From Mycolicibacterium hassiacum DSM 44199 (lineage in GTDB: Bacteria; Actinomycetota; Actinomycetes; Mycobacteriales; Mycobacteriaceae): a stretch of DNA of 64,000 bases. The stretch covers positions 1,488,001-1,552,000 of the forward strand of contig NZ_LR026975.1 of the NCBI RefSeq assembly GCF_900603025.1, in the 5' to 3' direction. The first letter of the stretch is position 1; every line of letters begins with the position of its first letter. Shown here piece by piece: positions 21,122-25,496 of the stretch. A program made the position numbers and the translations under genes. The notes beneath the pieces were generated by a model. It saw only the letters and a list, made by a program, of their open reading frames with translations. It searched no databases and was not told the DNA's origin.

Positions 21122-23164
21122 ATGACCGCGACCGGGGGTTCGATCGGGGGCCGACGCACCGGTTCGCTGCATCCGGGCGAACTCGCGCAGGCCTCGGTCA
21201 TGGCGGCCCTGTGTGCGGCCACCGCGATCATCTCCGTCGTCGTTCCGTTCGCCGGCGGGCTGGCCCTGCTGGGAACCGTGCCGATGGGGCTGCTGGCCTA
21301 CCGCTACCGGTTGCGGGTGCTGATCACCGCGACCGTCGCCGGGTCGATCATCGCGTTCCTGGTCGCCGGGCTCGGCGGCTTCATGACCGTGCTGGACTGC
21401 GCCTACATCGGCGGGCTGGCCGGCATCGTCAAACGCCACCGCCGCGGCACCCCGACGGTTCTGGTCAGTGCGCTGGTCGCCGGCGCGCTGTTCGGTCTCG
21501 CGGTGGTGGCGGCGCTCGCCGTGCTGAGCCGGTTGCGGCATCTGATCTTCGCGACCATGACCGCCAACGTCGAGGGCCTGGCCGCGATGCTGTCGCGGGT
21601 CCCGCAGTTGCAGGGTGCCGCCGATGTGCTGCGCAACGGTTTCGCCGTCGCGCTGCAGTACTGGCCGGTGCTGTTGTTCGGGATGGGCGTCCTGTCGATC
21701 ACCGTGGTCAGCCTGCTCGGCTGGTGGGCGCTGTCGCGGGTGATGGGCCGCCTGGCCGGCATCCCCGACGTGCACAAACTCGAACCCGGTTGCGACACCG
21801 GGCCGATCGCGCCGGTGCCCGTCCGGCTGCGCGACGTGCGGTTCCGCTACCCGGGTGCCGACCGGGACGCGCTGGGCCCGGTGTCGCTGAGCGTCGAACC
21901 GGGCGAACACCTCGCGGTCACCGGCCCGAACGGTTCCGGGAAGACGACGCTGATGCTGCTGCTCGCCGGGCGCGCACCCACCGCCGGCACCATCGAGCGC
22001 CCCGGCGCGGTGGGGCTGGGCCGCATCGGCGGGACCGCGGTGATCATGCAGCACCCCGAAAGCCAGGTGCTGGGCACCCGGGTGGCCGACGACGTGGTGT
22101 GGGGGCTGCCTCCCGGAACCGCTACCGACGTGGACGAACTGCTCGCCGAGGTCGGGCTCGACGGGTTGGCCGACCGCGACACCGGCGGGCTGTCCGGCGG
22201 CGAGCTGCAGCGGCTGGCGGTCGCGGCCGCGCTCGCCCGGGAACCGTCGCTGCTGATCGCCGACGAGGTGACCAGCATGGTCGACCAGGACGGCCGGGAG
22301 GCGCTGCTGAAGGTGCTGTCCGGGCTGACCCGCCACCACCGGATGGCGCTGGTGCACATCACCCACTACGACAGCGAGGCCGACGCCGCCAACCGCACCG
22401 TCGACCTCACCGGCAGCGCCGGTGGCGACGACAACACCGAGATGGTCCCGACCGCACCGGTGCCCGCGCAGTCCCCGCCGGCCGAGCCCGCCGGTGCCCC
22501 GGTGCTCGAACTGATCGGCGTCAGCCACGTGTACGCCGACGGAACCCCCTGGGCCACAACGGCATTGCGGGACATATCGTTCACCGTCGGCGAGGGCGAG
22601 GGGCTGCTGATCCACGGGCTGAACGGGTCGGGCAAGTCGACGCTGGCGTGGATCATGGCGGGGCTGACCGTGCCGACCGAGGGTCAGGCCCTGCTCGACG
22701 GCGCCCCGGTGTGGGATCAGGTCGGCGCGGTGGGGATCTCATTTCAGGCCGCGCGGTTGCAGTTGATGCGCAGCCGGGTGGACCTCGAGGTCGCCGCGGC
22801 CGCCGGATTCTCCGCGCGCGACCGCGATCGGGTGGCGCGGACGCTGGCCACCGTCGGCCTGGATCCGGCGCTGGCAGACCGGCGCATCGACCAGCTCTCC
22901 GGCGGGCAGATGCGCCGGGTGGTGCTGGCCGGTCTGCTCGCCCGCTCCCCGCGGGTGCTGGTGCTCGACGAGCCGCTGGCCGGCCTGGACGCGGTCAGCC
23001 AGCGGGGTCTGCTGCGGCTGTTGGAGGATCTGCGCCGCGACGGGTTGACGATCGTGGTGATCTCACACGACTTCTCGGGTCTGGACGGAGTGTGCACCCG
23101 CACCCTGCGGCTGCGCGACGGGAAGCTGTGCCCGGACCGGACCGCCGCCGGAGGGGTGGCATGA
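21122..23164 (+). CDS. ECF transporter fusion: S component plus two ATPases (Rv2326c-like)
   Basis: A 680-residue fusion. Residues 1-220 are a six-helix membrane part resembling an ECF substrate-binding S component. The first ATPase (about 235-440) has Walker [10 protein letters not shown], signature [11 protein letters not shown] and Walker B LLIADE; the second (about 460-680) has [20 protein letters not shown] and VLVLDE. With the EcfT protein downstream it forms a complete energy-coupling-factor importer for a vitamin or metal; the substrate is unknown. Architecture and divergent MarR match M. tuberculosis Rv2326c/Rv2327. The stop TGA originally overlapped the ecfT ATG, but an IS110 now sits at that point. 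Confidence 0.9.
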
Positions 23165-23193
23165 CACTTCCTGAGTCAACCCCTACGCAGTTT

Positions 23194-24423
23194 TCATGCT
23201 GCGGTGTGCAGTTTTTGTACGGCACCGTGCCGGGCGGGGTCGTAGGGGCTTTGGTCGTGCCAGCAGCGGTAGATGACGCGAATCCAGGCGCGGGCGAGGA
23301 TTCGCACGGCGTGGGGGTGGTCGTGTCCGCGCGCGCGGGCTCGGTTGTAGATGTCGGCTGCCCAAGTGCTTTGGTGTCGGCTGTTGTCAGCGAAGGTGGT
23401 CAGTGCTCGGCGGAAGCGTTTGTTGCATGCCCAGCGGAAGTGCACGGCGTGTTGTTTGCCGGAAGATTTGGTGACGGGAGTGACCCCGGCCAGGGCGGCC
23501 ACGGCGTCGGGACCGTCGTAGGCTGCACGGGAGTCGCCCCACTCGGCGAGCACCTGGGCGGCGTTGATCTGACCCGACCTTGGCAGCGACGTGAAGACCT
23601 CGGCGTCCGGGTGCTCCCCGAGGCGGGCGATGACGGATCGGTCGAGGGCCTTGCCTGCGCTGTTGAGCGCCTCGATGACGCTGACGAGGGCCAGCACGAC
23701 GTCGCGGACGGCGATAGTCAGGACGGGATCGGTGGTGCCTGCGGGTGCGCTGCGCAGCCGGGTCAACAGTTCTTTGACTGGTCGTCGACCGGAATAGGAA
23801 TGCTTGACAAGGAACGCAGCCAAGCGTTTCTCTCCGAGTCGAGCGGCGCTGGCCGCGGTGGGATAGCGACGCAGGAACGCCAGGCTGATTGGAGATTCGA
23901 CGTCGGCGAAGATCGCTTTGGCGCCAGGCCAGTGATCATCGAGCAGGGCGCTGAGTTGGTTGGTGGCCGCCACCCGCATGGCGACAACGTCGTCGCGGGT
24001 GCGGACCACCGTGCGCAGCGCCTTGGTCGACGAACTGTACGGGGCTGCGGGGCGCAGTCGATGGTGGCGCAAGCGCAGGTATTCGGCGATCACCAGGGCG
24101 TCACCGGCATCAGACTTGGCGCCGGAGATGACTTCGCCGTCCCGCCACGTTTTGATGGCGTTCGGGGATACCGGGATGACCGGGTGGCCGGCTTCGAGCA
24201 GCAGGTCGACCAGCCGCCCATTGGGTCGTTCGATCCCGATGTGCACATCGGCGGGATCGCCGAACTTGGACAGTTTGCGAATCAGTGTGGCGATGCCATC
24301 GGCAGTATGGTCAATCATGAACTGCGCCAGTATCTTTCCCACTGCGGACAGCACGCACACGGCATGAGTGGCGGCAGCCCAGTCCAACCCGACGTAGATG
24401 ATTTCTGCGGTTTCCTCGGACAA
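23194..24423 (-). CDS. IS110-family DEDD transposase/recombinase
   Basis: A 409-residue recombinase. The N-terminal RuvC-like domain has the four acidic residues D14 (VGLDWA), E65 (GIERPNG), D105 and D108 (SDAGDALVIAEYL). The C-terminal Tnp_20 domain carries the serine region GVTPVTKSSGKQH at about 313-325, expected to give the nucleophile, followed by FRWACNKRFRRALTTFADNS. All key residues are present, so it may be active. Start is TTG at 24423 with GAGGAGAT just upstream. It works with the RNA encoded immediately upstream on the same strand to bring target and donor together. Confidence 0.9.
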   Translation of the reverse strand: MSEETAEIIYVGLDWAAATHAVCVLSAVGKILAQFMIDHTADGIATLIRKLSKFGDPADVHIGIERPNGRLVDLLLEAGHPVIPVSPNAIKTWRDGEVISGAKSDAGDALVIAEYLRLRHHRLRPAAPYSSSTKALRTVVRTRDDVVAMRVAATNQLSALLDDHWPGAKAIFADVESPISLAFLRRYPTAASAARLGEKRLAAFLVKHSYSGRRPVKELLTRLRSAPAGTTDPVLTIAVRDVVLALVSVIEALNSAGKALDRSVIARLGEHPDAEVFTSLPRSGQINAAQVLAEWGDSRAAYDGPDAVAALAGVTPVTKSSGKQHAVHFRWACNKRFRRALTTFADNSRHQSTWAADIYNRARARGHDHPHAVRILARAWIRVIYRCWHDQSPYDPARHGAVQKLHTAA

Positions 24424-24459
24424 CGAATCTCCTCAAGGTGGCAGCGACGACGCGGCGAG

Positions 24460-24605
24460 GGGGTCGACCACCGGACGGTCACTAACTGGCGCTCTGCGGC
24501 GCGTCTTCCTGATGCCGGTCTGCGACTCCGGGAGGGCCGAGGGCGGCGGTGTCATGCTGGCCCTCTACGAGCGACCGCACCTGGCCGTCACCTCGGCCCC
24601 CGCCG
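24460..24605 (-). ncRNA. Candidate bridge RNA of the IS110 element
   Basis: Read on the minus strand. First hairpin: outer 9-base stem GGGCCGAGG/CCTCGGCCC (24599-24591 with 24542-24534). Inside it, GCGGTC (24578-24573) equals the left target flank plus core, and GCATGAC (24557-24551) is the reverse complement of core plus right flank GTCATGC. Between them GCTC/GGGC can pair. Second hairpin: ACCGG/CCGGT stem (24519-24515 with 24474-24470). Inside it, TCAGGAAG (24512-24505) equals the element's right end, and TAGTGAC (24484-24478) is the reverse complement of GTCACTA at its left end; GCGC/GCGC closes the tip. The order target loop then donor loop is that of the IS621 bridge RNA. Exact RNA ends are unknown. 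Confidence 0.75.
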
Positions 24606-24656
24606 AGTCCCTTCAACGAACACCCATCAGGCATCCGCAATAAGGATGGTGCCCTA

Positions 24657-25496
24657 GTGACCGCCCCGGCCCGCGGGCGGGCTCGCCGGCCGGTGGTGCT
24701 GTTGCGGCCGGTACCCGGCGACACCGTCATCCACCGGCTGTGGGCGGGCACCAAACTGCTGTCGGTGGCGGTGATCGGCGCGGTGCTGACCTTCTATCCC
24801 GGGTGGGTGCCGATCGGGTTGGTGGCGCTGCTGCTGGCGGTGGCGATACGGCTGGCGCACATCCCGCGCGGCACGGTGCCGACGATCCCGCGCTGGCTGT
24901 GGGTGCTGCTGGTGCTCGGCGGGGTCACCGCGGCGTTCGCCGGCGGCAGCCCGGCGGTCTCGGTGTTCTCGATCGACCTCGAACTAGGCGGGCTGCTGAA
25001 CTTCCTGCGCATCACCGCGCTGTCGGTCGTGCTGCTGGGCCTGGGCGCGATGGTGTCGTGGACCACCAACGTCGCCGACATCGCCCCGGCCGTCGCGACG
25101 CTCGGCCGCCCACTGCGGGTGCTGCGCATCCCGGTCGACGAGTGGGCCGTGTCACTGGCGTTGGCGCTGCGCGCCTTTCCGATGCTCATCGACGAGTTCC
25201 GGGTGCTGTCCGCCGCGCGCAGCCTGCGGCCCCGCGACGTCGACGGGCCCCGCGGCGGACGCTATCGGCGTTGGTGGCTCGGGGTGATCGACCTGTTGGC
25301 GGCCGCGATCACCGTCGCGCTGCGGCGCGCCGACGAGATGGGCGATGCGATCACCGCGCGCGGCGGCGCCGGCCAGATCTCGGCCGCGCCGTCGCGGCCC
25401 GAGCGCGCCGACTGGGTGGCCATGGCGGTGGTGTTCGCGGTGTGCGCGCTGGGGGTGGTGCTCGAGCTGACGGTGTGGGGCACCAGCGCCCGCTGA
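24657..25496 (+). CDS. ecfT: ECF transporter transmembrane component EcfT (Rv2325c-like)
   Basis: A 279-residue membrane protein, the T subunit that couples the ATPases to the S component. It begins [21 protein letters not shown], has about five hydrophobic segments, and in the cytoplasmic coupling region contains AARSLRPRD and [17 protein letters not shown], equivalent to the paired Ala-Arg motifs of EcfT. The start is GTG at 24657; in the uninterrupted operon it was probably ATG. The last bases of the IS110 supply AAGGAT about 10 bases upstream as a new ribosome binding site, so translation may survive the insertion. Confidence 0.85.

Follow-up and report, generated by a model that had tools for sequence, protein, structure and literature searches.

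The window, as we call the whole 64,000-nucleotide stretch of DNA analysed here, carries on its minus strand an IS110-group insertion sequence of 1,496 bp including the right core (23163..24658), delimited by comparing the flanks of 10 copies, with its left end at 24658 and its right end at 23163. It separates two host genes read on the plus strand: upstream, a gene for ABC ATPase domains that has kept its stop codon (21122..23164; Pfam ABC_tran in two stretches, 3.2e-49), and downstream, the gene for the T component of a CbiQ-type ECF transporter, which now begins with GTG (24657..25496; Pfam CbiQ, 1.3e-34). The element encodes a DEDD recombinase (23194..24423, minus strand) of 409 aa when read from the TTG given by the ORF tool, a start codon that is uncertain. 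This protein matches Pfam DEDD_Tnp_IS110 (4.8e-37) and Transposase_20 (7.9e-14), scores 180.7 bits against NCBIfam transpos_IS110 (cut-off 140) and has PDB relatives in ISCro4 (9t56) and IS621 (8wt6); both IS110 domains (PF01548 and PF02371), together with a length within the ~300-460 aa of the group, place it among the IS110 recombinases. Near the right end, a TTGACT noticed by eye (23174..23179, minus strand) is a putative −35-like element that would face the left end in a circle, and TTGAC is also present in relatives.

The host genome (5.27 Mb, one contig) holds 10 near-identical copies of the element at seven distinct sites, one site being common to four copies. Every copy (10/10) has GGTC to its left and GTCATG to its right, and comparison of these flanks gives the core GTC at both the right junction (23163..23165, minus strand) and the left junction (24659..24661, minus strand).

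A bridge RNA with four guide segments

The bridge RNA occupies 24469..24610 on the minus strand, as two hairpins with internal loops defined by a consensus structure and by covariation. All four guide segments announced by the original prediction were found at their minus-strand places; besides the sequence itself, the two target guides are identified by the covariation of guides with flanks, and the two donor guides by their match to the element's own ends. The left target guide is GTGCGGTC (24573..24580; previously given as GCGGTC, 24578-24573). The right target guide, GCATGAC (24551..24557), includes the start codon ATG and is the reverse complement of GTCATGC, i.e. core plus right target, while the right donor guide, TAGTGAC (24478..24484), is the reverse complement of GTCACTA, i.e. 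core plus left end. The left donor guide, TCAGGAAG (24505..24512), is the one segment of the four in which the core is absent: it copies 8 nt of the right end and stops one base before the core (TCAGGAAGT|GTC), so that the identity to the right end claimed for this segment holds over these 8 nt, one base short of a core that it excludes.

Among 18 close relatives, the consensus structure of region 24469-24610 is two hairpins with the guide segments in the internal loops. In this alignment 97.0% of the cells are paired, 11 of 37 pairs are compensated and 28 cells change on both sides, against 4.3 and 9.0, respectively, in shuffles; none of 500 shuffles attains the observed values, and sliding the partner columns by 1-3 removes most of the signal. 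In the sister clade (17 elements, with ~45% protein identity to the window recombinase), 96.9% of the cells are paired, 16 of 46 pairs are compensated (8.1 in shuffles) and 50 cells change on both sides (13.7 in shuffles). The conserved structure in homologues that had been set as a test is thus present in both clades, and a two-hairpin bridge RNA with the order, strand logic and stems of that of IS621 is supported by covariation in the stems as well as between guides and flanks. Folded alone, the window sequence has no excess stability (z −0.18 and −0.47), and an Rfam search gave no match; the structural evidence therefore comes from covariation only. A 5′ hairpin, CATCC...GGATG, considered as an explanation of the conserved CACCATCCTT, was dropped, being broken in L022, L023 and L025. 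The donor-loop cap carries insertions of 12 or 15 bases at six loci (L062, L065, L066, L073, L158 and L163), multiples of three that would keep the antisense frame described below.

Guides change together with targets and element ends

We compared guides and flanks between elements, with expectations taken from flanks shuffled within a clade. In this set, the guides or flanks of 18 loci were entered or corrected by hand, and only loci with both a guide and a flank were used; the guides of L043 were dropped after a wrong pattern match, and the left flank of L024 was not used. Among 48 distinct pairs, agreement between the right target guide and the flank reaches 47, 48 and 41 at +2, +3 and +4, respectively (34.1, 27.2 and 20.8 expected; reached by 0 of 4000 shuffles). 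Position +1 matches in 47 of 48 and hardly varies, which makes it uninformative, and there is no excess at +5 (1/48, 0.3 expected) or +6 (13, 14.2 expected); all seven letters of the guide match the flank in 38 of the 48 pairs. The left target guide agrees more laxly than the right one, yet above shuffles: 28, 24, 21, 30 and 20 of 45 pairs match at −2 to −6 (22.3, 13.6, 13.6, 18.8 and 12.5 expected, reached by 19, 0, 3, 0 and 3 of 4000 shuffles), with no excess at −7 (7 matches, 9.5 expected). A mean of 3.5 of 6 bases match in the 41 pairs of the start type (see below), and all six bases beside the core match in the four reset elements counted as distinct pairs. The flanks of other copies therefore fit the target guides, and guides covary with flanks between elements, as the original prediction would have it. 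Nor were identical loops found at unrelated sequences, the outcome by which it had proposed to be judged: all seven distinct sites in the host genome read GGTC|ATG.

The donor side was compared within each element. The right donor guide, taken as the 7-mer that fits best past base 120 of the left end, is exact in 33 of 36 elements, over five left-end forms, and mismatched in L029, L053 and L072. A left donor run of 7-9 nt lies at the donor loop in 26 of 36 elements and is unclear in four; the other six have no run of at least 6 (L019, L020, L026, L057, L058 and L166). Single-base misfits occur in both directions, L029 and L054 combining the left end GTCGCTA with the guide TAGTGAC, and L053 combining GTCACTA with TAGCGAC.

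The core shifts together in target, donor end and guides, from GTC in the close clade to CTC in the sister clade. A core within GTC, as first proposed, thus holds for this clade and gives way to CTC in the other, and from what the two cores share the crossover may lie in TC. The cores of both clades differ from that of IS621, which we take to be the dinucleotide CT. Overall, comparison of sequences supports an element of the IS110 group that transposes by bridge-RNA-guided recombination.

The usual address is a translation start

On the gene strand, the target is in most cases a translation start of the form N(A/G)TG-ACC, which becomes N(A/G)TG-AGC in the sister clade. Each of the seven own sites reads C-ATG-ACC on this strand. 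At six of them the downstream frame matches Pfam CbiQ, Pirin, BrxC/D, ABC permease, DUF4233 or a CRP-type regulator, and the seventh lies inside a Mutator-type transposase. The latter is shared by four copies with identical flanks (L010-L013; G000:C1:4295693, 2920786, 2897314 and 2442715), all at one internal ATG-ACC, a mobile element inside a mobile element; a copy in a second species (G183, L148) has the same flanks. The ATGA overlap of two ECF genes, first taken as the target, does exist at the window site, as a special case of a more general target, a gene start with or without overlap. When 11 element-free homologous loci are aligned from residue 1 of the CbiQ gene of the window, three read ATGACC there (L172, L174 and L175) and two GTGACC (L171 and L176); in the other six, the alignment sets in a few residues away.

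Start-type sites whose flanks were of sufficient length numbered 38, and a coding-frame classifier scored 26 of them as gene-start-like; in a background of 277 kb of other sequence, it did so for 37 of 256 instances of [CG]ATGA[CG]C (Fisher p 1.4e-11) and, with the GTG form of this motif, for 47 of 514. A Shine-Dalgarno-like motif precedes 24 of the 38 start-type sites and 50 of 280 in the background. Twelve of the 38 are not start-like by the classifier (L010, L021, L029, L030, L057, L065, L071, L156, L158, L162, L164 and L165). An earlier, stricter classifier called start-like 24 of 47 among all sites and 3 of 10 CATGACC in the window; its limits were relaxed afterwards and the background enlarged. 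Of the sites of nine elements whose guides are of another kind, the classifier accepts one (L070).

The guides themselves point to the same address. In those of the start type, variation affects the bases that precede the start codon, and the codon is either ATG or GTG; when GTG replaces ATG in the right guide, the flank follows at four of five loci (L030, L154, L155 and L163, not L041). ATG or GTG stands in the start register in 15 of 20 distinct right guides, the remaining ones being those of L058, L060, L069, L070 and L074. L069 is ambiguous, with the guide CTGATGG but a site with the left core that reads ATGAGC, and the L058 site is TTG, an alternative start, which is not start-like by the classifier. 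Together with these non-start guides, four sister elements (L063, L064, L067 and L068) aimed at a tandem repeat show that guides can be reset. This repeat, TTCGCGCAAGCGCTCATC, has a 33-bp period and is found at G000:C1:2812154-2812237 (L167 and L168).

Insertion exchanges one start codon for another

The element splits the host gene just after its ATG, before the second codon, and its transposase runs antisense to that gene. Of the two target guides, the right one includes the start codon and the left one the bases that directly follow it. The right end preserves the host's own Shine-Dalgarno sequence and the original ATG (23161..23163, plus strand), identified with the help of element-free homologues, and at the window site also the TGA of the upstream gene that this ATG overlaps (23162-23164). 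The left end, read outward, is AATAAGGATGGTGCCCTAGTGACC: it brings a Shine-Dalgarno-like AAGGA (24642..24646, plus strand), recognized in the sequence and in the left tips of relatives, followed by a GTG in frame with the host gene. This new start (24657..24659, plus strand) overlaps a TAG (24655-24657) in the sequence TAGTG. Close-clade elements usually have TAGTGAC at the left tip, and those of the sister clade CAGTGAG. Among the variants, L030 has TAATGAC, hence an ATG, with its right donor guide altered to match; L072 also has ATG, L166 has TAGTGAG, and L029 has GCG in place of GTG.

An antisense frame is open through the whole element

From the host ATG, a frame of 498 codons (23161..24657, plus strand) crosses the recombinase gene in register, then the bridge-RNA gene, and ends at the left tip on a stop that overlaps the new start, TAG in the close clade (TAGTG) and TGA in the sister clade (GTGA). 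The same stretch of DNA carries three layers, a structured guide RNA, a transposase and an open antisense frame; the first reading of this element had recovered the bridge RNA and missed both the frame and the exchange of start codons.

Among 30 elements of the start type, the frame extends unbroken as far as the tip in 23; it does so in none of the four reset elements with both ends measured (L058, L069, L070 and L074), and it is kept open without a start target in the four repeat-aimed elements. These tests omit L060; L064 and L068, with their tandem-repeat target, were mis-measured in the tip count, and their values come from a separate measurement. The failures show a split or deleted recombinase reading (L018, L026 and L071), a left-end length out of frame (L019 and L020), an altered recombinase end (L041) or a duplicated right end (L029, judged from its twin L054). 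In 29 of 38 elements, the length is 2 modulo 3. In the left ends (235-358 nt; last three codons excluded from the count), 30 of 32 elements are free of stops in the antisense frame, namely 26 of 28 of the start type and all four repeat-aimed ones. The two remaining antisense frames are interrupted by stops in 28 and 31 of the 32, and all three sense frames in most elements. In four reset elements, the left-end antisense frame has stops in three.

Within the recombinase gene, the codons TTA, CTA and TCA are those whose complements are stops. We counted codons in place of a synonymous-shuffle test within the transposase, which is uninformative for most elements because the avoided codons are wholly absent. 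In 27 recombinase genes (10,776 codons, leaving out eight damaged start-type copies and five reset ones), TTA and CTA account for 0 of 1,074 Leu codons and TCA for 0 of 502 Ser codons. Neighbouring rare codons do occur (CTT 32, TTG 93, TCT 15, AGT 27), and other A-ending codons are in use (GCA 8.4%, CCA 8.9%, GGA 14.8%). Five host genes have TCA in 9 of 161 Ser codons and TTA or CTA in 0 of 234 Leu codons; at the host rate, the absence of TCA would have a probability of ~3e-13 if codons were independent, a figure too strong given shared descent. Seven distant or reset IS110 genes (L058, L059, L074, L075, L077, L078 and L080) have TTA or CTA in 24 of 284 and TCA in 22 of 156; the reset elements L060, L069 and L070, kept out of this group, lack all three codons as well. 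The eight damaged start-type copies have two CTA in 2,732 codons, one each in L018 and L071. These patterns of stops and codons indicate that selection is keeping the antisense frame open.

Discussion

We propose that guided insertion into start codons is combined here with a translational bypass that spares the host gene and its operon, a reading to which we give a probability of roughly two in three. The guides would be set on translation starts, so that the element enters between ATG and the second codon. The operon would be transcribed through the insertion, and ribosomes loaded at the host start would translate the antisense strand to its end, which would prevent Rho-dependent polarity; at TAGTG (GTGA in the sister clade), they would stop and reinitiate on the interrupted gene. 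The element would thus settle, at little cost, in gene starts, which are very common targets, and what is selected would be the open frame more than the protein it encodes. The frame, in short, probably lets the host keep translating through the element.

The most serious alternative, although an unlikely one in our view, is that a functional protein is encoded by the antisense frame, in the way that hed of IS900 has been named as a gene, and that start targeting serves its translation. A frame kept open in two lineages would fit, as would the dependence of hed on host expression described in the part of the IS900 literature drawn on here (PMC8141618). At the level of amino acids, the signal is mixed. 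In the left end of 12 elements, the changed/silent (dN/dS-like) ratio, which RNA constraint complicates, is 1.01 in the antisense frame and 0.99 and 0.65 in the other two antisense frames, as for residues that look unconstrained. Antisense identity at shared residues exceeds that from random synonymous choice in all 29 pairs compared (L024 and L031 left out): it is 0.54-0.66 vs 0.51-0.54 in 24 pairs with the window element (excess 0.01-0.14) and 0.69-0.77 vs 0.56-0.59 in five sister pairs (excess 0.10-0.18), suggesting that some protein constraint may act on the antisense product. However, this excess over what the transposase accounts for is small and common to the codons themselves: same-codon identity is raised in those 29 pairs too, so that shared descent may explain it, and the antisense amino acids look weakly constrained at most. 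Further against a working protein, searches with the product give nothing in Pfam at E 1 and a best E of 0.17 in NCBIfam; blastp against the IS900-like frames finds no clear homologue (best E 0.13), i.e. the frames of the two lineages lack clear similarity; and the frame ends precisely where the host gene now starts, an overlap for which protein coding alone gives no reason.

It is quite improbable, though less so than the last option below, that translated antisense transcription serves mainly the element itself, silencing transposase and bridge RNA while it is integrated, the open frame being selected for a stable antisense RNA; the frame does span the transposase and bridge-RNA genes, but this would leave the AAGGA, the new start codon at the tip and the stop/start overlap unexplained. 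We give almost no credence to an ordinary bridge-RNA element whose start sites are surviving insertions and whose open frame comes from high G+C codon usage: long antisense frames do occur elsewhere in the window, the five host genes likewise have no TTA or CTA (0/234) and 12 of 38 start-type sites are not start-like, but the start codon is present in the guides themselves, TCA is found in host genes (9/161) and not here (0/502) where other A-ending codons are used, and the non-coding left end is likewise free of stops in this frame, as it is not in the other two antisense frames.

If guided insertion with translational bypass is correct, a frame of ~500 codons would be selected for its openness and not for its protein, which would also explain the hed frame of IS900. 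That this amounts to a class of RNA-guided transposons made to do next to no harm, with guides directed at the most frequent safe address that a genome offers, the start codon, with the whole element including the guide-RNA gene open in antisense, and with host ribosomes that restart on the interrupted gene, seems to us an even bet. Natural bridge RNAs would gain a biological purpose that can be read from sequence, namely which address is chosen and why. For engineering, these elements may offer guides of natural origin that direct insertion to start codons and bring a restart with them, as well as recombinases naturally adapted to GTC or CTC cores.

Comparison with known systems

The window element resembles the IS621/IS110 group with bridge RNA, as presented in the parts of PMC11208160 used here, in its DEDD recombinase with PF02371, its left-end bridge RNA with two internal loops, its guide order and strand logic, and a core within most guides. 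Start-codon guides, a whole-length antisense frame and start exchange are features of the window element that we did not meet in those parts of the IS621 account (PMC11208160). In the seekRNA systems ISEc21/IS1111, an RNA from the non-coding region likewise selects the target, and natural reprogramming is reported; the targets described in the sections consulted are other sequences, with no start-codon system among them (PMC11187229). In the open-licence PubMed Central literature we found no work joining bridge RNA with start codons, and prior work may exist elsewhere.

The closest parallel is IS900 of Mycobacterium avium subsp. paratuberculosis. In the portion of PMC8141618 considered here, which cites Doran 1997, its antisense frame hed is left without a described function, and its target motif is given as CATGNNNNNNTCTCCTT (PMC8141618). 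From that portion, IS900 belongs, like the window element, to the IS110 family, aims at translation-initiation signals and has an antisense frame over the whole element. IS900-like left ends are present in 9 of 396 genomes of the genus searched, and the copies L191-L202 are spread over several species. Of 14 IS900-like loci, 11 were examined for the frame (L192, L203 and L204 left out): eight have an antisense frame of 480-481 codons ending at the tip, L191 and L193 are open past the tip, and L194 is broken. As in the window element, the transposase of these copies (L191-L202) avoids TTA, CTA and TCA, none of which occurs in ten IS900-like genes (five distinct; 242 Leu and 111 Ser codons). A whole-length antisense frame dependent on host signals is therefore common to both; the motif CATGNNNNNNTCTCCTT with a split Shine-Dalgarno sequence is not, the window target being CATGACC with a split start codon. 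The IS900-like copies split the Shine-Dalgarno sequence and supply the antisense-frame ATG and a new Shine-Dalgarno sequence, whereas the window element splits the start codon and supplies GTG. As the antisense products of the two lineages have no clear similarity, the arrangement would be either old or have arisen twice. The translational bypass proposed here offers a testable answer for the role of hed. The group, IS110, is a known one; what is new, as read from these genomes, is the start-codon address, the start exchange and a whole-length antisense frame under selection.
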